Below are positions 2,390 through 45,412 of a stretch of DNA of 45,768 nt, one piece after another (position 1 is the stretch's first letter; each line of letters opens with the position of its first letter). This stretch comes from Clostridia bacterium (lineage in GTDB: Bacteria; Bacillota; Clostridia; UBA1212; UBA1255), in assembly GCA_017613535.1 (NCBI GenBank), contig JAGADO010000130.1, positions 1-45,768 on the forward strand. The letters run 5' to 3'. The notes under the pieces are model-generated. The model saw only the letters and a list, made by a program, of their open reading frames with translations, searched no databases and had not been told where the DNA came from. Made by a program: the position numbers and the translations under genes.

Positions 2390-4276
2390 TCAGTTCTTTT
2401 TGCGCGAATGAAGCGCGTACAGCGTTTTTATTTCTCTGACGAGTGTTTTTGCGGCAAACTCGCATTGCTCTTCAGTATTATCCGCGGAGAAACTGATGCG
2501 TATCGCGCCGTCAATCACTTTGGTATTTTTTCCCATTGCCGTCAGCACCGCGCTTCTGTTCTTTTTATGTGACGAACAGGCGGAACCGACGGATACGTAT
2601 ATGCCTGATTTTTCGAGCGTGTGAAGGATCACTTCCGCTCTGAGTCCCGGGAACGAAACGTTCAGGATGTACGGAGAGCAGTTCTCTTCAGGAGAGTTCA
2701 AAACGTACGTCTTGAGGCCTGATGTTATTGCGCTCGTGAATATTTCCTTCATTCGGGCCGCTTTTGAAAAACGGTCGTCAAGCGAGCCGCAGATCACTGA
2801 CGCGGCAGTTTCGAATCCGCATATTGCGGGAAGGTTTTCAGTTCCTGAACGGAAGCCGTTTTCCTGACCTCCCCCGTACAGGAGCGGTTTGATTTTTACG
2901 CGTTTGTCTGCGTAAAGGAATCCTATGCCTCTGGGGCCGTGTATCTTATGCGCGCTCACGGATATAAGATCCGCGCCGAGTTTTTTTACGTTCACGGAGA
3001 TCTTTCCGAAGCTCTGGACGCAGTCGCAGTGTACGAGCGTTCCGGGGGAAAGACGCCTGACTTCCCTGACGATCTCTTCCACCGGCTGGATGCTGCCTGT
3101 CTCGCTGTTTACGTGCATCACGGAAACGAGAGCCGTTTCGCCCGGCCTGATCATTTCCGCCAGCTTTGCAACATTGACGCGTCCGTCCGCATCTACCGGA
3201 GCGATCTCCACGTCGCAGCCCTGCTCTTTCATTGACAGCGCGCTTTCGGACACGGACGGATGCTCTACTGCCGAAATTATCACGTGCCTGCCAAGCCTCG
3301 GATTTGCCGGAAGTATGCTCCTGAAGACCCAGTTATTAGCCTCTGTCGCGCCGGATGTGAAATACAGATTTCCCGAGTCTTCCCCGCCAATCAGCCCGAG
3401 CAGTTTTCTGCGCACAGAAGTGAGTTCTTTTTCAGCGTCGAATCCCGGGCCATGGAGAGAAGAAGGATTTGCGTACAGCACTTCACAAACGCGCGCCATT
3501 CGGGCAGTGACTTCATCCCACTGCTTCGTGGTGGCGCTGTTGTCGAAATAATAAGTATTTTTTTCGCGCTCGCGGCGCATGTATTTTTCGTACAGATCGG
3601 GGCGCTTTTCTTTCGTGCGTCCGATGGCGTTCTCGAGCCGCCATTGTTCGATATCCGCATGATTTCCGCGGAGGAGTACGTCCGGAACTTTCTTTCCGGC
3701 GATGACTTCGGGGCGCGTATACTGGGCATATTCGAGCAGGATATCCGAGTGTGATTCGTTCTCGTACGCCTCATCGGATGCGAGGACTCCCGGAACGAGC
3801 CGCGCAATACAATCAGCGACAGCCATCGCTGGTATTTCTCCGCCCGTAAGGACGAAATCGCCCATAGATATCTCTTCGTCAACGATATCTTCGATGATGC
3901 GCTCGTCGATGCCCTCGTAGTGGCCGCAGATTATGACAAGCCTGTCGAGTTTTGCGAGCCTGCGCGCTGTCTGCTGGGTAAAAGGCGTCCCCTGGGGAGA
4001 CATATAAACGGTATACGGTTTACCGCCGTCATCTGTCGGGTGGTCTTTCAGTACCGCGTCATAGCAGGACTTTACGGGCTGATATGACATAATAAGACCG
4101 GGACCTCCTCCGTACGGGTAGTCGTCAACTTTCCCCTGTCTGTCTTCGGTGTAGGTCCGGATCTGGTGACAATCTATTTCAAGATGACCCGCTTTTATCG
4201 CCCTGGCAACGATGCTTTCGGAGAATGCCGCGCTGCACATGTCCGGGAAGAGGGTCAGTATATCTATCCGCTTCAT
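2390..4276 (-). CDS. trmD: TrmD - cysteine desulfurase fusion protein
   Basis: One open frame of 628 codons joins two enzymes. Residues 1 to about 238 are tRNA (guanine-37-N1)-methyltransferase TrmD: LTLFPDM at the start, YGGGPG near 55-60, CGHYEGIDERI near 117-127 and the SAM knot motif GDFVLTGGE near 139-147. Residues from about 241 are an aminotransferase-V class cysteine desulfurase (NifS/IscS type). It shows YFDNSATT (243-250), SGATEAN, HVNSETG, HCDCVQSFGK, PLP lysine K444 in SAHKIHGP, RSGTEN, and persulfide cysteine C567 in GSACSS. Both halves are full length and all key residues are present. There is no ribosome binding site before the second half, and no start codon between the A7 run at 3558-3564 and its FDNSATT motif. 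thiI follows 28 bp downstream. Standalone TrmD is about 240 residues. A homopolymer sequencing error is the main alternative to a real fusion. Confidence 0.9.
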   Translation of the reverse strand: MKRIDILTLFPDMCSAAFSESIVARAIKAGHLEIDCHQIRTYTEDRQGKVDDYPYGGGPGLIMSYQPVKSCYDAVLKDHPTDDGGKPYTVYMSPQGTPFTQQTARRLAKLDRLVIICGHYEGIDERIIEDIVDEEISMGDFVLTGGEIPAMAVADCIARLVPGVLASDEAYENESHSDILLEYAQYTRPEVIAGKKVPDVLLRGNHADIEQWRLENAIGRTKEKRPDLYEKYMRREREKNTYYFDNSATTKQWDEVTARMARVCEVLYANPSSLHGPGFDAEKELTSVRRKLLGLIGGEDSGNLYFTSGATEANNWVFRSILPANPRLGRHVIISAVEHPSVSESALSMKEQGCDVEIAPVDADGRVNVAKLAEMIRPGETALVSVMHVNSETGSIQPVEEIVREVRRLSPGTLVHCDCVQSFGKISVNVKKLGADLISVSAHKIHGPRGIGFLYADKRVKIKPLLYGGGQENGFRSGTENLPAICGFETAASVICGSLDDRFSKAARMKEIFTSAITSGLKTYVLNSPEENCSPYILNVSFPGLRAEVILHTLEKSGIYVSVGSACSSHKKNRSAVLTAMGKNTKVIDGAIRISFSADNTEEQCEFAAKTLVREIKTLYALHSRKKN

Positions 4277-4284
4277 ACTGCTTT

Positions 4285-4872
4285 TTATCCTTCCAGGTAG
4301 ACTTCTTTGAGCCCCGGAAGAAGCTTTACAAAAACAAGTCCCCGTTCGACATCGACGTGTCTGATAACGTCGCCTATCGACGGGATGTACATTTCTTTAT
4401 TATCCGGAGTCCTGACTCCGTAAACGTCGTTGCTGCCCGTGGGAAGCACCTCGAACAGTTTGCCTAAAAGAGCGACGCCTTTTGCGTCTGTTTCGAACAG
4501 ATTTTCATCTGCGCCGTCGGTGAACTCGTAGACCGTTGACCCTATGAGATCTCCGATAAAATACGTGTCTTCGGGAAGCTTTACCGCCTCATCGCGCGTT
4601 ACCGAAAGCATTGCCCCTCTGAAGAGTTCGGCCGTGTTGCGATCGTATACTCCGTCGAGCAGCAGGATAACGCTGTTACCTGAAACCGTCGCGTACGAAA
4701 CCTTGTACCTCCCCGAAAGTCCCTTGTACGGACCGGAATCGGATGGCAGCTTTACGTCGACAGCTTCGGTTTTCGTGAACCTTTCGGGATAATCGGTCAT
4801 CGGCTTTACTTTGAGTCCGCCCCTGACGCCGTGTACGCTTACAACTTCTCCTATGAGCAGATTTTTAAGCAT
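4285..4872 (-). CDS. rimM: 16S rRNA processing protein RimM
   Basis: RimM helps mature the 3' (head) domain of the 30S subunit and binds ribosomal protein S19. The 195-residue protein has the N-terminal RimM motif LLIGEVVSVHGVRGGLKV followed by a C-terminal PRC-barrel (the DVYGVRTPDNKEMYIPSI segment near 145-165). Family members are usually 165-190 residues; an acidic stretch near 115-130 (GADENLFETDAKG) accounts for the small excess. GGGGAG precedes the ATG at a suitable distance. It lies 8 bp upstream of the trmD fusion, the classic rpsP-rimM-trmD order. Confidence 0.93.
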   Translation of the reverse strand: MLKNLLIGEVVSVHGVRGGLKVKPMTDYPERFTKTEAVDVKLPSDSGPYKGLSGRYKVSYATVSGNSVILLLDGVYDRNTAELFRGAMLSVTRDEAVKLPEDTYFIGDLIGSTVYEFTDGADENLFETDAKGVALLGKLFEVLPTGSNDVYGVRTPDNKEMYIPSIGDVIRHVDVERGLVFVKLLPGLKEVYLEG

Positions 4873-5007: not shown

Positions 5008-5247
5008 TCATTCGGCTTTATCGACGATGTCGATGTAAACCGGTTTCGGATTATTTCTGAACGCGGCTTTTGCTACGGTACGAAGCGCTCTGGCCACTCT
5101 GCCTTCACGGCCGATGACTCTGCCCATATCTGCGGGGGCAACGCTGAGTTTCAGTACGGTGTTGTTTTCGTTTTCTTCAACTTCTACAGAAACCTGATCC
5201 GGATCGTCTACCAGCTGGCGGACAATAGTTATAAGGAACTCTTCCAT
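5008..5247 (-). CDS. khpA: KH-domain RNA-binding protein KhpA
   Basis: This 79-residue protein is a single KH domain of the YlqC/KhpA family. It carries the RNA-contacting loop GREG within MGRVIGREGRVARALR (near 42-57), and ends in the family-typical YIDIVDKAE. KhpA usually pairs with KhpB (EloR/Jag) and binds many transcripts; khpB is not in this window. The location between rpsP and rimM is the usual one in Firmicutes. A GAGGT lies 11 bases before the ATG. Confidence 0.92.
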   Translation of the reverse strand: MEEFLITIVRQLVDDPDQVSVEVEENENNTVLKLSVAPADMGRVIGREGRVARALRTVAKAAFRNNPKPVYIDIVDKAE

Positions 5248-5312: not shown

Positions 5313-5555
5313 TCACGCGTTTTCCTGTGCTTTCTTTAAAAGGACTTTTACGGTGTCGGTAGGTTGTGCGCCTTTTTTCATCCATTCGTCAGCCTTTTCC
5401 AGGTCGATCTTGATCTCCGCGGGTTCAACCAGCGGATTATACGTTCCGATCTCTTCGATAAATCTGCCATCTCTAGCGTAGTGAGACTCGGCAACGACCA
5501 CCCTGTAGAAAGGAGCCTTTTTAGCACCGATCCTTCTTAATCTGATCTTAAGCAT
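5313..5555 (-). CDS. rpsP: 30S ribosomal protein S16
   Basis: The 80-residue protein matches S16 from its first residue: [24 protein letters not shown], then [15 protein letters not shown], and a lysine-rich C-terminal helix with [17 protein letters not shown]16 is an early-assembly small-subunit protein in the 5' domain of 16S rRNA. GGAGGTGA stands just upstream of the ATG. A hairpin that recurs elsewhere in the window lies in the 76-bp gap after ffh. Confidence 0.97.
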
Positions 5556-5631: not shown

Positions 5632-6987
5632 TCAGATGTCGCCGGGAAATCCTCCGGGAAAGTTACCCGGGAATCCTCCGCCGAGACCTTTTTTGCCAAT
5701 ACCGCCTTTAGTCATGCGCTTCATCATTGACCGCATATCCTCAAACTGGTGCATAAGTTTGTTGACATCCTGCACCGTCGTACCGCTTCCGGCCGCTATC
5801 CTTTTTCTTCTGCTCGCGTTTAAAATGTCGGGATTACGCTTCTCTTTCGGCGTCATCGAGCAGATGATTGCTTCGATCTTCGAGAGCGCTCCTTCATCTA
5901 TCTGCGAGTCGTTTATCTGAGATGCTCCGGGGATAAGTTTCAATATGCCCCGCAATCCGCCCATTTTCCTGATCTGCCTCAGCTGTGCGAGGAAGTCGTC
6001 GAGCGTGAACGTCTGCGCCCTTATCTTCTTCTCAAGTTCCACCGCCTGCTTTTCGTCATACATCTCCTGCGCTTTTTCGATAAGCGTGAGCACGTCGCCC
6101 ATACCCAGGATCCTGTCCGCCATTCGCTTCGGGTAGAACGTCTCGAATTCGCTGAGTTTTTCGCCACTGGACGCAAACTTTATGGGCTTTCCGGTGATGG
6201 ATCTGACGGACAATGCAGCGCCGCCTCTCGTGTCGCTGTCCAGCTTGGACAATATCACGCCGGTAATGTCGAGGTCGTCGTTGAACGCTTTTGCTACGTT
6301 CGCGGCTTCCTGACCTGTCATACTGTCAACGACGAGCAGTATTTCCGAAGGATTGAGCGCTTTTTTCAGCTGCCTGAGCTCTTCCATCATATCCTCATCT
6401 ATCTGGAGACGTCCGGCCGTATCGACGATGACCGTGTCATTCAGGCTGCGCAGCGCCTTTTTAACCGCATTCTGCGCGATCTCGACAGGCTTTTTGCTGT
6501 CCTCCGTATAAACGGGCACATCGATCTGCTTACCGAGCACTTCGAGCTGTTTTATAGCTGCAGGCCTGTACACGTCGCACGCGGCCATTAGCGGTTTTCT
6601 GCCGTTTTTCCTTAAATGGAGAGCAAGTTTCGCTGAAGCCGTCGTTTTACCGGCACCCTGAAGGCCGCACATAAGGATGACGTTCGGAGGCTGTTTCGAA
6701 AAATCGAGTTTGTAGTCGTCGGAGCCGAGGAGTTCGACCAGTTCGTCGTCAACGATCTTTACGATCTGCTGGCCCGGTGACAGGCTTTCGAGCACTTTCT
6801 GACCGACCGCCTTTTCTGAAACTTTAGCCACAAAGTCTTTTACGACCTTGTAGTTTACGTCGGCTTCCAGGAGTGCGAGCCTGATCTCGCGCATAAACTC
6901 TTTAACGTCCTTCTCGGAGACTCTCGTCTGTCCCCTTAGACGTTTCATCGTAGCCTGTAATTTTGCCGATAAGCTTTCAAATGCCAT
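5632..6987 (-). CDS. ffh: Signal recognition particle protein Ffh
   Basis: Ffh is the GTPase of the bacterial signal recognition particle and targets nascent membrane and secreted proteins together with SRP RNA and FtsY. The 451-residue protein shows the N domain (MAFESLSAKLQ onward) and the G domain with P-loop GLQGAGKTT (near 108-116), DTAGR near 190 and SKLDSDTRGG near 247. The methionine-rich M domain follows, with the RRKRIAAGSG segment near 392-401 that contacts RNA. It ends in a glycine/proline/phenylalanine-rich tail. The GGAG ribosome binding site and position directly after ylxM are typical. Confidence 0.97.
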   Translation of the reverse strand: MAFESLSAKLQATMKRLRGQTRVSEKDVKEFMREIRLALLEADVNYKVVKDFVAKVSEKAVGQKVLESLSPGQQIVKIVDDELVELLGSDDYKLDFSKQPPNVILMCGLQGAGKTTASAKLALHLRKNGRKPLMAACDVYRPAAIKQLEVLGKQIDVPVYTEDSKKPVEIAQNAVKKALRSLNDTVIVDTAGRLQIDEDMMEELRQLKKALNPSEILLVVDSMTGQEAANVAKAFNDDLDITGVILSKLDSDTRGGAALSVRSITGKPIKFASSGEKLSEFETFYPKRMADRILGMGDVLTLIEKAQEMYDEKQAVELEKKIRAQTFTLDDFLAQLRQIRKMGGLRGILKLIPGASQINDSQIDEGALSKIEAIICSMTPKEKRNPDILNASRRKRIAAGSGTTVQDVNKLMHQFEDMRSMMKRMTKGGIGKKGLGGGFPGNFPGGFPGDI

Positions 6988-24940: not shown

Positions 24941-25747
24941 TCAAGGCACGCTGAACACATATGTCAGCAATATTATGCCCGCGCCGTATGCAAGGAAAAC
25001 GAGCAGCGCGATGAGATCAAGCTTCGAAAACTTCATGACGCGGTACCTTGTACGGCCGCTGCCGCCGCGATAGCAGCGGGCATTCATTGCCTGCGCCAGC
25101 TCATCCGCCCTTCTCCACGCGCTGATAAACAGTGGGATCAGTACGGGAATGTAGCTCTTAACGCGCTCGATCAGACGCCTGCTGTCGAAATCCGACCCCC
25201 TTGCCGTCTGAGCCTTGATAATTCGGTCGGTCTCATCGGCAAAGATAGGAATAAACTTAAGCGCGATACCCATCATCATTGCCGCCTCGTGGACCGGAAA
25301 ACGCACGATCTTAAGAGGACGCATAAGCGCCTCCAGACCGTCGGTGAGATTGACCGAAGTCGTTGTATACGTCACGACCGACGCTCCTATCACGAGAGAG
25401 ATCACGCGAAGCGCCATTTTAGCGCTGAAAATGATCCCGTCCTTGTAAATGTGAATGAACTTCCACGACCAGAGCAGCTCTTTGCCCTGAAAGAAGAAAA
25501 TATTGATCACGAACGTGATGGCAATAATAAACAGCACGGCGCGCAGGCTTCTCAGCACATATTTGAACGGAATGTGCGCTGAAATAAAAACGGCAGCGAG
25601 AAAAACGGCGGTCAATGCGTACGCGCTGAACGATTTGATCAGCAGCACGAGCACCATGAACGCAAGAGTAGCCAGCAGCTTCGTGCGCGGGTCAAGGCGG
25701 TGTATGAAGGACGAGCCGGGAAGATATTGACCGAAAGAGACTTTCAT
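24941..25747 (-). CDS. ecfT: Energy-coupling factor transporter transmembrane protein EcfT
   Basis: EcfT is the membrane scaffold of group II ECF vitamin/metal transporters and couples the ATPase pair to exchangeable substrate-binding S components. The 268-residue protein begins with the family motif PGSSFIHRLDPRTKLL and has about five hydrophobic segments. It contains coupling-helix signatures AQTARGSDFDSR and AQAMNARCYRG, with the paired Ala-Arg-Gly/Ala-Arg-Cys motifs that contact the ATPases. Its ATG overlaps the EcfA stop by 4 bases (ATGA). No S component is in the window, as usual for group II systems. Confidence 0.93.
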   Translation of the reverse strand: MKVSFGQYLPGSSFIHRLDPRTKLLATLAFMVLVLLIKSFSAYALTAVFLAAVFISAHIPFKYVLRSLRAVLFIIAITFVINIFFFQGKELLWSWKFIHIYKDGIIFSAKMALRVISLVIGASVVTYTTTSVNLTDGLEALMRPLKIVRFPVHEAAMMMGIALKFIPIFADETDRIIKAQTARGSDFDSRRLIERVKSYIPVLIPLFISAWRRADELAQAMNARCYRGGSGRTRYRVMKFSKLDLIALLVFLAYGAGIILLTYVFSVP

Positions 25748-27714
25748 TGTCCGGCCACCTCCCCTTCAGCCTTCAAACGCCCGGTGAGCGCAAGTATCTC
25801 GCCAGCCGCGTCCTCGACCGTATATATTTTCCTTGAAATGCTGATCTCCGGCAGCGCCTCATTCAGCCTGTGGAACAGCTTCGAAAGCTGTGGTACCGTC
25901 AGCCCCATATCCTCGAGCGCCTGCTCGTTCTCAAAAACGTCCGCCGGTTCGCCGAACATCGAAACGCGGCCGTGATCCATAACAAGTACGCGGTCGCAAA
26001 GGCGCGCGACGTCGTCCATACTGTGCGAAACAAGAATGACCGTATTCGCGTTTTTCTTATTAAGTTCGCTGCAGATCTCGAGAATGCTGTCGCGCCCCGC
26101 CGGATCGAGACCCGCGGCAGGTTCGTCGAGCACGAGAATGCCCGGCTTCATCACGAGGATCCCCGCGATCGCGACGCGCCTCTTCTGGCCTCCCGAAAGG
26201 TCGTAAATCGATTTTTCGCGCACGTCTTTCGGGTCAAGTCCCACCTGCACGAGCGCTTCGTCTACTCTCTTTGCGGTCTCTTCTTCGGAAAGGCCGTCGT
26301 TCCTTATACCGAACGCTACGTCGCGAGCAACGGTCGATTCGAAGAGCTGATATTCGGGGTACTGGAACACGAGTCCAACGCGCCTGCGCATCGATTTCAC
26401 GTTCGCTCCGCCCATCTGTTCGCCGCCGATCGATATCGATCCATCTCGCGGTTTCAGCAGGCCGTTAAGGTGCTGTACGAGCGTGGATTTTCCGCAGCCG
26501 GTGTGACCGATTATGCCGATAAACTCACCGTCACCTGCGCTGAAACTGACATTTTCGATTGCATTGTGAGCGTTTTTTGCATCGGAATTATACGAATACG
26601 TTATCCCGTCCGCTTCGACAGAATTCGGGCCTTCTCTGAACACATACGGATGCTTCGACTCGCGCCGGTCAGACTCACGCTTTTGCATTGACGCCAGATC
26701 GGACAGTTCGGGCAAAGCTTCGGCGCGCAGAAGATCCGCGAGCACCGGGAGCGCTTCGTCGACAGTTATAATATCCGCCGGTATTTCGAGGCCTTTTTCA
26801 CGGAGGACAAACGCGAGCGCCGTGACAGCGGGAACTTCAAGGCCGCACGCGCGCATCTCCGCCGGTCTCGAAAAGAGTTCCTTGGGAGTGCCGCTCATAG
26901 CGATCATGCCGTTGTCGATGACAACGACGCGGCTGCACGCGGCAACTTCGTCCATGTGGTGCGTTATATGTACGATCGTGATGCCATGCTCTTTATTAAG
27001 CATTGACGCGACCTTCATTACTTCTCTGCGCCCGACAGGATCGAGCATCGCCGTAGCTTCGTCGAGGACAATGCATTTCGGCCTCATCGCGAGTATTCCG
27101 GCTATCGCAAGGCGCTGTTTCTGGCCTCCGGACATCTGGCTCGGCTCTTTCGCAAGGCGGTCACCAATCCCGACCGTTTCTGCCGCCCATTTTACGCGCT
27201 CGACCATTTCCGGCCGCGGCACACCCATATTTTCCAGACCGAACGCGATATCCTCCTCGACAGTGGCGCCGATGATCTGGTTATCCGGGTTCTGGAAAAC
27301 CATTCCGACGCGCGACCGGAGTTCCCACTCCATATCTTCGCTGGAGGTATCGATGCCGTCAACGATCAGCGTGCCTTCGGACGGTATGAGCAGCGCGTTC
27401 ATCAATTTTGCGAGTGTGGATTTTCCGGAGCCGTTCCTGCCGATCACGGCCAGGAATTCTCCGCGTTTTACGGTGAGGTCAACGTTTTTCAGCGCTTTTA
27501 CGTAGCGGATGCCGTCTTTTATCTCGTCATTCTTATCGTCTTTCTGACCGGCAGCGTCTTCGCCGCCTTCGCTCACTTCTTCGTCGTCAACAGATATTTC
27601 ATAGGAATACGAAACGTTATCGAACGTCATGAACTCGTTCGACAGCGGAAGTTCGTTGTTTTCAATTTCCGCCTGCGGTAATGCAGTTTGTTTCTTTTTC
27701 TTTCTGCCAAACAT
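25744..27714 (-). CDS. Single-chain double ECF ATPase (EcfA1-EcfA2 fusion)
   Basis: Two complete ABC ATPase domains in 656 residues power the ECF transporter with EcfT. Domain 1 has Walker A GRNGSGKS (92-99), Q-loop QNPDNQ, signature SGGQK (195-199) and Walker B LDEA. Domain 2 has Walker A GHTGCGKS (403-410), QYPEYQ, LSGGQ (507-511) and LDEP. Most Firmicutes encode EcfA1 and EcfA2 as separate genes. An acidic, presumably disordered insertion (about residues 42-68, rich in Asp/Glu) separates the first strand and aromatic A-loop of domain 1 from the rest, which is unusual. A linker of about 60 residues joins the domains. GGAGGGGG precedes the ATG. Confidence 0.93.
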   Translation of the reverse strand: MFGRKKKKQTALPQAEIENNELPLSNEFMTFDNVSYSYEISVDDEEVSEGGEDAAGQKDDKNDEIKDGIRYVKALKNVDLTVKRGEFLAVIGRNGSGKSTLAKLMNALLIPSEGTLIVDGIDTSSEDMEWELRSRVGMVFQNPDNQIIGATVEEDIAFGLENMGVPRPEMVERVKWAAETVGIGDRLAKEPSQMSGGQKQRLAIAGILAMRPKCIVLDEATAMLDPVGRREVMKVASMLNKEHGITIVHITHHMDEVAACSRVVVIDNGMIAMSGTPKELFSRPAEMRACGLEVPAVTALAFVLREKGLEIPADIITVDEALPVLADLLRAEALPELSDLASMQKRESDRRESKHPYVFREGPNSVEADGITYSYNSDAKNAHNAIENVSFSAGDGEFIGIIGHTGCGKSTLVQHLNGLLKPRDGSISIGGEQMGGANVKSMRRRVGLVFQYPEYQLFESTVARDVAFGIRNDGLSEEETAKRVDEALVQVGLDPKDVREKSIYDLSGGQKRRVAIAGILVMKPGILVLDEPAAGLDPAGRDSILEICSELNKKNANTVILVSHSMDDVARLCDRVLVMDHGRVSMFGEPADVFENEQALEDMGLTVPQLSKLFHRLNEALPEISISRKIYTVEDAAGEILALTGRLKAEGEVAGQ

Positions 27715-37359: not shown

Positions 37360-39183
37360 TCAGTTTTTCACGCGGTTCCAGCTAACGAACTCAGAACGAC
37401 CGTCCCATGTTCCTCCCGCGGACTGGTAGTCGATCCAGTCGAATCCTCCGTACGAGCACGAAAAAAGCTTTGCCACGGGGATATCTGCGTATGCGACATA
37501 AGGCTCCGGATCGAACGGAACGGCACCGTCAATATCCGTAAACCTTTTGTCCCTGGACATTACGATCGGACCGTGGCGGAGGAGAGCAAGGCCGTTGCCC
37601 AGATCATTAACGCTGCCGGACGTCAATACCATTTTATCTTCGATCGCGAAATCTACGTCTATTATCATGCCTTCCGCGAACGGTCCGGGCACGACCGCGT
37701 ATCCCCTGTATTCAGGCAGTTCGGTCCATCCTGCAGGTTCGCCGTTCTTAAGCACCGTAAAGTCGCGCGCATACGGAGGGATGCGCAGAAGGATATTTCC
37801 GGCAAAGAACGCACCGCCCCCTATGGCCATCGTCGTCTTCCCCGACTTCGGGAAATCCGAGCGGATGTCGAGCGTCATCTTACCGAAAGCAGCCCTGCCG
37901 CTCAGGTAGAAATTGACCACCGGACCGATGCCGGATTGCATAAATGCGATGTACGGAACGATACCGAGGCCCATCGGACCGTTAGCCGTGCAGCAGCTAA
38001 GATCAAAATCACCGACTTTGTACGAGAAATTGACCTTGAAATTACGCGTACCGTTAAAGCGCGGGAAATATTCGAAGAACATGCCGTCCGGCTTGAGTGC
38101 CGCGATAAGAGCGTTAAAAGCACTCCGTTCGATGCTGTCCGCATAACGCGAATCGCCTTCCAGCCTTAGGATCTGGAGGCAGAGTTTCATCCAGGTGACC
38201 GTTACGCACGTCTCCATCATAAGATCGATATCGGGATTCGCCTGCTCTTTTCGCGTAAGGTTCCACTGCTCGCCTGTACCCGGGCCGAGGTTGAACGGTC
38301 CGTCTGCGCCTCCCGAGCCAAGCTCGGTGATCTCCTCTTCGATAAGCTTTTCGTATAGGTTCAGCACAGCCTGCCTGTCTTTTTCTCTCCCGGTGACTCT
38401 GTAGAATTCGGTCAATCCTTCAAAGCACGACATCATTTCGTACGCTTTGGCAATGCTCTGCTTCGGGTCCCCGTTTCCTCCGACCGAATACGGCGAGCGC
38501 CCGGACAATATCGCTTCGAATATGTTTTCTCTCCTGCATCCTCCTGCTTTCACCAGATATTCGGCGAACGCCAGATGTTCAGGCTTGCGGGTAATGTTGT
38601 ACACTTTAACGACCGGTTCAAGGATAGACGTCGATTCGATACCGTAAAACGCCCAGCCTGTCGACAATATCGGCATTTTTCCGGGTTCGTCTCCGACCTG
38701 CGAGATAGTATAATCCAGAAGCGCGCTCAATGCGTTCTTTACACGCCCGAGTTCGGCCTCGCACCAGTCTCTTTCACACGATTCGACCACTTTATAGTAT
38801 CCGAGGAGCCCGAGCATTATATATTTGCGTTCCCACAGATCGGCCCCCGAGGAACCGTTCGGCTGTTCGTTCTTAGGGGCGGTACTCAGCTCCCCGTCCT
38901 CTCCCTGGATCGACAGGAGGTCGCCAACAGCATCGCGCATCTTTTCCAAAAGCCAGGCATCGCCCGTATAGGCGTAGATCTCAGCAGAAGCGCGCATTAT
39001 CTTTCCCCAGAACTCGCCCGCGGCAAACTGGTTGCGTTTTTCTCTGTAAAAATCGGCCAGGCGCCTGTAATCAAGCACGCTCAGGAGCCCGTTCTCCACC
39101 GTTCTGATCTTTCTGTCGAAAATATTATCCGCGGCAAGCTTTACGCTTCCCGGCTTCAGCATGAAAAATCTGTCATTCTTCAT
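37360..39183 (-). CDS. GH127-type beta-L-arabinofuranosidase (former DUF1680)
   Basis: GH127 enzymes release beta-L-arabinofuranose from plant hydroxyproline-rich glycans. The 607-residue protein has the (alpha/alpha)6-barrel landmarks METCVTVTWMKLCLQILRL (Glu and Cys zinc ligands) and DLSCCTANGPMGL, where the paired cysteines match the nucleophile/zinc-ligand pair of HypBA1. A C-terminal beta region (NILLRIPPYARDFTV, NGEPAG) follows. There is no signal peptide, so it would act in the cytoplasm on imported oligosaccharides. Its ATG overlaps the miaB 3' end by 11 bases and has GGAGGG 8 bases upstream. Related families (GH146, GH142-like) cannot be ruled out by eye. Confidence 0.85.
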   Translation of the reverse strand: MKNDRFFMLKPGSVKLAADNIFDRKIRTVENGLLSVLDYRRLADFYREKRNQFAAGEFWGKIMRASAEIYAYTGDAWLLEKMRDAVGDLLSIQGEDGELSTAPKNEQPNGSSGADLWERKYIMLGLLGYYKVVESCERDWCEAELGRVKNALSALLDYTISQVGDEPGKMPILSTGWAFYGIESTSILEPVVKVYNITRKPEHLAFAEYLVKAGGCRRENIFEAILSGRSPYSVGGNGDPKQSIAKAYEMMSCFEGLTEFYRVTGREKDRQAVLNLYEKLIEEEITELGSGGADGPFNLGPGTGEQWNLTRKEQANPDIDLMMETCVTVTWMKLCLQILRLEGDSRYADSIERSAFNALIAALKPDGMFFEYFPRFNGTRNFKVNFSYKVGDFDLSCCTANGPMGLGIVPYIAFMQSGIGPVVNFYLSGRAAFGKMTLDIRSDFPKSGKTTMAIGGGAFFAGNILLRIPPYARDFTVLKNGEPAGWTELPEYRGYAVVPGPFAEGMIIDVDFAIEDKMVLTSGSVNDLGNGLALLRHGPIVMSRDKRFTDIDGAVPFDPEPYVAYADIPVAKLFSCSYGGFDWIDYQSAGGTWDGRSEFVSWNRVKN

Positions 39184-40636
39184 AATACACGCCCTCCAGC
39201 GACCACGTTTCAGCCCCTGTGATCTTTACGCGGACAATATTTCCTGCCTCGGGGAGTTTTTTCGAACTGCCGCCGTCACAGCCTGCGTCCGCCTCAAAAT
39301 TAACGATCTTGTTTCCCTCCGTACGCCCGGTCAACCTCATCGCGTTCGTCTTGCTCGGGCCTTCAACAAGCACTTCGAGAGTCTTGCCCACGAGCGCCTC
39401 GTTCTTCTCCCTGCCGATCCTGTTCTGCGTCTCGGTGAGCCTCGCAAAGCGCCTGTTTACGACGTCCGAAGGCACCTGATCCGGTCTCGCCGCAGCGGGT
39501 GTCCCCTGACGTTTCGAATATATAAACGTAAACGCGGCATCAAAACGCACTTCTTCCAGAAGCGACAGAGTATCTTCGAACTCCTCTTCTGTTTCGCCCG
39601 GAAACCCGATCATTATATCTGTTGACAACGTTATATCCGGCACTGCTTCGTACACTTTCCGCACAAGTTCCAGGTATTGTTCCCTCGTATATTTCCTGTT
39701 CATTCTTTTAAGTTCCGGCGTGCTTCCCGACTGCACCGGAAGGTGAAGCTGCCTGCATACTTTCGGTTCTTCTGCGATAGCTCGGATCAGTTCCGGCGAC
39801 AAGTCTTTCGGGTGCGACGTCATGAATCTTATGCGTTTTATATCCGTCTCGCGGCAGATCCTGCGGATAAGCCCCGCAAAGTCGGTGCCGTCGCCTTCCG
39901 CGCCTTTCCCGTACGAATTAACGTTCTGACCAAGGAGCATTACCTCTTTAGTACCGCCGTCGGCAAGCTCTTTTACTTCTTTAACGATATCGTCCGGCAG
40001 GCGGCTCCTCTCTCTTCCGCGCACGTACGGGACAATGCAGTACGAGCAGAAATTGTCGCAGCCGTACATCACCGTAACGTACGCTTTGAACTTTTCGTCG
40101 CGGCTCACGGGCACTCCTTCCGGCAAGCTGTCCTCCGGTTCGGCACCGATCATGCGCCTGCGGTCGAAAATCCTTGCCGCCATATACTCCGGCAGCCTGT
40201 ATGTATTGCCCGTGCCCATCACAATGTCCACGTGGCGGTACGATTTTTTAATCCGCTCGACGACCCATTCCTGCTCGGTCATACATCCGCAGACGGCAAC
40301 GATCAGTTCGGGTTTTATCCTTTTTGCTCCTTTTACGGCTCCAAGCTGCCCGAATATCTTGTCTTCCGCGTTTTCGCGCACGCAGCATGTGTTGAATACG
40401 ATAACGTCCGGAATGAGTGTGAAATTGGTGATGGAGTAGTCCGGCACAATATCGTATCCCATCTGTTTCAGCATTCCTTTGAGCTTTTCGGAGTCGTGCT
40501 CGTTCATCTGGCAGCCGAACGTTTTTACGCATGCGGTCAAAGGCTGTCCCGTTTCTCCGACAGCCTTCTCGTTATGCTCTCTTATTTTCTGTGCCAGGCG
40601 GCTCATTTCCGCCGTTTTTTCGGGTAATATTTTCAT
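39173..40636 (-). CDS. miaB: tRNA-2-methylthio-N6-dimethylallyladenosine synthase MiaB
   Basis: MiaB is a radical-SAM methylthiotransferase that converts i6A37 to ms2i6A37 in tRNA. The 487-residue protein has the N-terminal UPF0004 cluster motif VKTFGCQMNEHDSEK (C43 region), VFNTCCVRENAEDK and VCGCMTEQE. The radical-SAM motif CDNFCSYCIVPYVRGRERSR follows, and a C-terminal TRAM domain (from about 415) binds RNA. The arrangement and NEHDSE signature favour MiaB over MtaB or RimO. The N terminus of about 35 residues before the first cysteine is slightly long but normal for Clostridia. Confidence 0.95.
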   Translation of the reverse strand: MKILPEKTAEMSRLAQKIREHNEKAVGETGQPLTACVKTFGCQMNEHDSEKLKGMLKQMGYDIVPDYSITNFTLIPDVIVFNTCCVRENAEDKIFGQLGAVKGAKRIKPELIVAVCGCMTEQEWVVERIKKSYRHVDIVMGTGNTYRLPEYMAARIFDRRRMIGAEPEDSLPEGVPVSRDEKFKAYVTVMYGCDNFCSYCIVPYVRGRERSRLPDDIVKEVKELADGGTKEVMLLGQNVNSYGKGAEGDGTDFAGLIRRICRETDIKRIRFMTSHPKDLSPELIRAIAEEPKVCRQLHLPVQSGSTPELKRMNRKYTREQYLELVRKVYEAVPDITLSTDIMIGFPGETEEEFEDTLSLLEEVRFDAAFTFIYSKRQGTPAAARPDQVPSDVVNRRFARLTETQNRIGREKNEALVGKTLEVLVEGPSKTNAMRLTGRTEGNKIVNFEADAGCDGGSSKKLPEAGNIVRVKITGAETWSLEGVYYEE

Positions 40637-44752: not shown

Positions 44753-45412
44753 TCACCCTTCAAAAAACGCAATCATTTTCTTTAACTCTACCCTGACCTT
44801 TTCCAGGTCGCTGCATGTAAGGAGCGGAATAAGGTCGTTGACCTCTTCAACACTTTTATCCCACCACTTGAACCGAAGGAGAAGTTCGATCAGTTCGTCG
44901 TCAAAACGCTTTCGCAAAGGCCTGGCGGGGTTTCCCGCAACGATCGTGTACGGTTCGACGTCGCTCCCGACAACGCTGTTCGCACCGATGATCGCACCGT
45001 CGGCAATATGCACTCCGGGCAGGATCAATGCGTTCTGCCCGATCCAGACGTCGTTGCCCACGACTGTATCTCCCCTGATCGGCAGATCTGAAAGTTCCGG
45101 CGGCTGCATATCCCAGCCCTCGAGCGTATAAAACGGAAACGTTGTCACCGCGTTCAGCTGGTGATTTGCCCCGTTCATGACGAATTCGACACCCGCTGCG
45201 ATCTGACAATATTTGCCGATGATCAGTTTATCGCCGATCCATTCGTAGTGATGCGTGACGTGGCTTTCGAACTCTGAATCGGCAATGTAAGTGAAGTCGC
45301 CGACAATGATATTCGGCTTTTTTACCGTCGGTTTTACGTATATTTCTTTTTCGTATCCGCTGATTGGATGGATCACGTCAGGATCCGGAAGTTTACCGTT
45401 TTTCATATCCAT
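44753..45412 (-). CDS. Vat/CatB-type xenobiotic acetyltransferase
   Basis: A 219-residue left-handed beta-helix (hexapeptide-repeat) acetyltransferase. It resembles streptogramin A acetyltransferases of the Vat group over its full length: PDPDVIHPISGYEKEIYVKPT, YHYEWIGDKLIIGKYCQIAAGVEFVMNGANHQ (catalytic His in GANH), the GNDVWIGQNALILPGVHIADGAIIGANSVV repeats, and the KWWD motif. Vat enzymes O-acetylate streptogramin A using acetyl-CoA. Many chromosomal homologs have unknown natural acceptors, so resistance is a possibility, not a conclusion. The start is modestly supported. Confidence 0.88.
   Translation of the reverse strand: MDMKNGKLPDPDVIHPISGYEKEIYVKPTVKKPNIIVGDFTYIADSEFESHVTHHYEWIGDKLIIGKYCQIAAGVEFVMNGANHQLNAVTTFPFYTLEGWDMQPPELSDLPIRGDTVVGNDVWIGQNALILPGVHIADGAIIGANSVVGSDVEPYTIVAGNPARPLRKRFDDELIELLLRFKWWDKSVEEVNDLIPLLTCSDLEKVRVELKKMIAFFEG

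Follow-up and report, generated by a model that had tools for sequence, protein, structure and literature searches.

The window analysed here, a 45,768-nucleotide stretch of DNA, forms contig C125 in a Clostridia genome of 2.66 Mb (177 contigs, estimated 82% complete). On its minus strand a tRNA methyltransferase, TrmD, and a cysteine desulfurase appear in one open reading frame, and the question raised by this locus is whether the frame is genuine and, if so, how it arose and whether the physical link matters to the enzymes that it joins. In the interpretation favoured here, to which a probability of about 0.8 was assigned, the locus encodes a two-enzyme protein of single origin, in which the TrmD half would make m1G37 and the NifZ-like desulfurase half would feed ThiI for s4U8. 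Both enzyme activities and the delivery of sulfur to ThiI are conclusions that we infer from sequence.

The fused frame and its two halves

The frame extends from 2390 to 4276 on the minus strand, begins with ATG and specifies 628 amino acids in 628 codons with no internal stops (ORF listing). A Pfam search of the 628-residue protein placed tRNA_m1G_MT (PF01746) at residues 24-226 (E 6e-55) and Aminotran_5 (PF00266) at residues 243-605 (E 4e-72) and returned no other domain; there was no match to PF09936, the second domain of the TrmD-Tm1570 family. The TrmD part comprises residues 1-232 (3581-4276) and the desulfurase part residues 242-628 (2393-3553), joined by residues 233-241 (3554-3580, the RREREKNTY region), and the proposal, made from the sequence alone, that two complete enzymes share one 628-codon frame was borne out.

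The TrmD part exceeded the NCBIfam cut-offs of both NF000648 (292 bits against 220) and TIGR00088 (280 bits against 195), and its closest solved structures were the S. aureus TrmD-type chains 9sdv and 3ky7. In an alignment of 25 fusions the loops GHYEG, DEE, GDF/Y and TGGE were conserved along with R159, and GHYEG, TGGE and R159 were invariant. Glu174 occupies the position of the catalytic aspartate of S. aureus TrmD, but an altered TrmD was rejected as an explanation, since unfused Clostridia have the identical glutamate, and the residue is thus not linked to the fusion. The protein resembles TrmD (PF01746) in having the whole domain, scores above the cut-offs, the motif residues, a single copy and a place after rimM, and differs in that its C-terminal tail is a second enzyme. 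Every fused genome gave one TrmD match, so a second, separate TrmD was rejected and the fusion is the sole TrmD in these genomes. Because TrmD is essential in well-studied bacteria, the TrmD half should be functional and make m1G37. The enzyme is described as essential elsewhere, too (PMC5217690).

In the desulfurase part, His339 (3260-3262), the PLP lysine Lys444 in SAHK (2945-2947) and the persulfide cysteine Cys567 in GSACSS (2576-2578) are all present and were invariant among the 25 aligned fusions, apart from two or three incomplete rows, in keeping with the sequence-only reading, which had described the lysine and the cysteine as intact. The matches to the NifS/IscS group in NCBIfam were strong, although all fell below the equivalog cut-offs (NifS, 323 against 531 bits; IscS, 251 against 643 bits), and none of the named equivalogs NifS, IscS and DndA was reached at the curated thresholds. 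The closest solved structures were NifS/IscS-type chains, and the fold family, PLP lysine and persulfide cysteine are those of group I (IscS/NifS-type) desulfurases. Across six pairs, nonsynonymous to synonymous ratios per site were 0.06-0.18 in the TrmD half and 0.09-0.24 in the desulfurase half, values that are rough with synonymous sites near saturation; purifying selection acts on both halves.

A frame of this kind could also result from a sequencing or assembly error, an indel in a homopolymer that unites two separate genes, and the junction does contain a run of seven T on the plus strand (3558-3564), corresponding to seven A on the coding strand, just where it had been noted before. However, a survey of the order found the frame intact across the junction in 27 of 31 genomes, the window's own included (24 full length and three cut by a contig end yet spanning the junction), among them all seven genomes surveyed from the window's genus and all 16 surveyed from its family. 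Three of the other four genomes have separate genes and one is an incomplete genome without TrmD. The A run is absent from the junction in most relatives (e.g. L004, L006, L016), where the frame is nevertheless open, and an artefact of the run was therefore rejected; its probability is practically nil. The sequence-only reading had allowed that the frame might hinge on the length of the run or that close relatives might always have split genes; instead, the frame is independent of the run and close relatives are fused. The named records of the fused lineage are draft assemblies of uncultured organisms. The TrmD-desulfurase fusion is genuine.

The length and sequence of the junction vary among the 27 genomes. 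The stretch that separates TrmD's RPD motif from the desulfurase's (F/L)DN motif measures 6 residues in family f4, 16 in f1, 17 in f5 and 32 in f6, and the linker sequence is poorly conserved, which argues against a single fixed geometry. In unfused TrmD the RPD motif is followed by 26 residues in another Clostridia genome (L053) and by 13 in family f3, so the TrmD tail was already short before fusion. At none of the 27 junctions was an in-frame start codon accompanied by a recognisable ribosome-binding site; initiation within the frame was rejected on these grounds, and translation of the desulfurase separately from the TrmD half is thus unlikely. An AlphaFold2 model built from a 10-sequence alignment (pLDDT 66, pTM 0.48) was of too low confidence to place the domains relative to each other. 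Both TrmD and the cysteine desulfurases form homodimers, and the fusion must therefore accommodate two dimer interfaces, which raises the question of how two normally homodimeric enzymes assemble in one chain with a linker of as few as six residues.

Distribution and origin of the fusion

The fusion is present in four families of the order. The named relatives are uncultured Clostridia of gut or rumen and include Mageeibacillus sp. UBA1255, RGIG10101 (yak rumen), RGIG8055 (water buffalo rumen), the uncultured 'Ruminococcus' RUG12823 and RUG14148, and Oscillospiraceae SIG423. Among 391 sampled genomes of the class, all proteins covering both halves among the matches listed (to about 290 bits) belong to the order; none came from the 375 genomes outside it, and the full-length fusions scored above every single-domain match listed. 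A sample of 398 genomes of the phylum likewise contained no genome beyond the order at the fusion-level threshold.

The genes that surround the fusion are all on the minus strand. Directly upstream is rimM (4285-4872), assigned by sequence and position, whose product matches that of the gene upstream of trmD in genomes G016 and G018. The same operon contains a ylqC-like gene for a KH-domain protein (5008-5247) and rpsP, encoding ribosomal protein S16 (5313-5555), both located as reading frames in the expected gene order and identified by judgement from their sequences, and ffh, for the signal recognition particle protein (5632-6987), a reading frame whose product matches ffh-like genes that precede rimM-trmD in the same two genomes. 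Downstream lies thiI (1192-2370), encoding an s4U8 synthetase without a rhodanese domain, which scored above the cut-offs of PF02568, PF22025, PF02926 and TIGR00342. That thiI directly follows the fusion, as had been proposed, holds for all 27 fused genomes, where it adjoins the 3' end; in G006 and G027 the link was read from the contig bearing the desulfurase end. The start of thiI is perhaps a TTG near 2361, preceded by the ribosome-binding site GGTGA, rather than the GTG at 2370, as the relatives begin ATGGACAGG there. In the family search, thiI of G024 appears in two pieces (C43:19498-20624, L041); either the gene is frameshifted or broken, or the assembly is in error.

Relatives with separate genes indicate the order of events. 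In family f3 (G017, G018), trmD and the desulfurase gene are separate and overlap by four bases (ATGA), with rimM just upstream and thiI following, and in G016 (family f2) the desulfurase-thiI pair and rimM-trmD are on different contigs. In 18 other Clostridia, picked for a well-matching desulfurase, the nearest desulfurase gene adjoins thiI in every case and trmD was found in none of the stretches examined. In a tree of desulfurase and ThiI the fused families form one clade and f3 is the sister of them all, with FastTree supports of 0.978 at the node of the fused clade and 1.0 at the node that adds f3, and corresponding IQ-TREE supports of 97.6/99 and 100/100 (unrooted tree). The fusion thus has a single origin in the order, and it has been kept, with no split among the fused families. 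The simplest history comprises one relocation, one overlap and one fusion. The desulfurase-thiI pair would have moved to a position behind trmD in the ffh-rpsP-rimM-trmD operon, the desulfurase gene would then have come to overlap trmD by ATGA, the state still present in f3, and the two frames would finally have been joined into one.

Sulfur supply and the significance of the link

In the proposed pathway, the TrmD half would make m1G37, while the desulfurase half, NifZ-like, of group I type and probably dedicated to ThiI, would move sulfur from cysteine onto Cys567 and hand it to ThiI, the product of the next gene, which would thiolate U8 of tRNA to s4U. B. subtilis needs only NifZ and ThiI to make s4U; its ThiI has no rhodanese domain, and nifZ directly precedes thiI (PMC5372745). 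The window has the same arrangement, a group I-type desulfurase directly before a rhodanese-less ThiI, and differs in that TrmD and the desulfurase form one protein; the putative orthology to B. subtilis NifZ was judged by gene order and relatives. Contig C118 of the window's genome also bears an iscR-iscS-iscU cluster, apart from the fusion, which makes it improbable that the fused desulfurase is the Fe-S enzyme there.

The fused desulfurase might instead be a general sulfur donor that supplies MnmA and Fe-S clusters beyond its ThiI partner. IscU was not found in 13 of the 31 genomes of the order. In G026, which is 97% complete, the only class V aminotransferase apart from the fusion belongs to a weaker-scoring subtype, yet thiI and mnmA are kept. 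In some relatives, where IscU and other IscS-type desulfurases were not found, the fused enzyme may serve beyond ThiI. The separate IscS-IscU cluster in the window's own genome and in many others argues the other way, and absence from a draft genome is weak evidence, so that for the order such a role is possible and somewhat improbable.

Other genes for tRNA sulfur modification were also noted. The window's genome has two MnmA-type genes (G000:C114 and G000:C157), as do several relatives. An IscS-type desulfurase gene of G001 (C73:3423-4559) lies beside mnmA (C73:2742-3338), and G004 and G011 have iscS, iscU and mnmA side by side, so that a further desulfurase-thiolase pairing exists apart from the fusion. 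The window itself encodes a MiaB-like radical SAM methylthiotransferase (39173-40636, minus strand).

Whether the link has a mechanistic role is a distinct matter. The chances are about even that the fusion is neutral, the overlapping pair having lost the stop and start by a small mutation, and that the two enzymes act independently, the link only setting equal amounts. The ATGA overlap in f3 provides such a precursor, and since the fusion descended from an overlapping gene pair, co-expression alone could account for it; the variable linker (6-32 residues) and the ordinary appearance of both catalytic domains, with no specialised residues, are consistent with this. On the other hand, the fusion has been kept in four families, and the joining of two different homodimer-formers is unlikely to be cost-free. 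That retention without reversal across the order, the constant neighbourhood of thiI and the fact that tRNA is the substrate of both TrmD and ThiI would fit a functional tether, by which the TrmD half would deliver its attached sulfur donor to tRNA or to tRNA bound by ThiI and so coordinate m1G37 with s4U8. A tether of this type is nonetheless unlikely, as ThiI binds tRNA unaided, the desulfurase hands sulfur to ThiI and not to tRNA, and the variation of the linker gives no hint of a fixed arrangement. More doubtful still is a tRNA-maturation hub, in which the TrmD half would hold a tRNA while the tethered desulfurase sulfurates ThiI on that same tRNA. If it were true, s4U8 would be coupled to m1G37 and sulfur status would act on an essential methylation, and in lineages without other desulfurases the fused protein would be the cell's central sulfur donor.

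Relation to known fusions

The locus combines known parts, TrmD and a desulfurase, in one protein. No description of a TrmD-desulfurase fusion was found in open-access papers (PMC), which agrees with the sequence-only reading, which knew of none. The nearest parallel is the TrmD-Tm1570 fusion (PF01746-PF09936), which occurs in separate, adjacent, overlapping and fused gene states and for which a homodimer was proposed (PMC11187310). Both fusions have a second tRNA-related enzyme at the C-terminus of TrmD and a series of states from separate to fused, but the second domain of TrmD-Tm1570 is a SPOUT methyltransferase, whereas here it is a PLP-dependent desulfurase. Desulfurases are fused to other enzymes in the CysH-SufS type proteins of Methanomicrobiales (PMC11237513) and in desulfurase-rhodanese chimeras (PMC8931425); in neither is the partner a tRNA methyltransferase.

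The fusion unites an essential, near-universal bacterial tRNA methyltransferase with a sulfur-mobilising enzyme. With its separate, overlapping and fused states, the order offers a natural system in which to ask whether tethering benefits tRNA modification enzymes. For annotation it carries a warning, that TrmD and the desulfurase are a single gene in the fused genomes.

Two further loci of the window, both on the minus strand, were noted. At 25744-27714, a 656-residue frame contains two ATP-binding cassette domains (EcfA1-EcfA2-like) and is followed by an EcfT-like gene, possibly a second fusion. At 44753-45412 there is a gene for a hexapeptide-repeat acetyltransferase that, by eye, resembles the Vat-type xenobiotic acetyltransferases.
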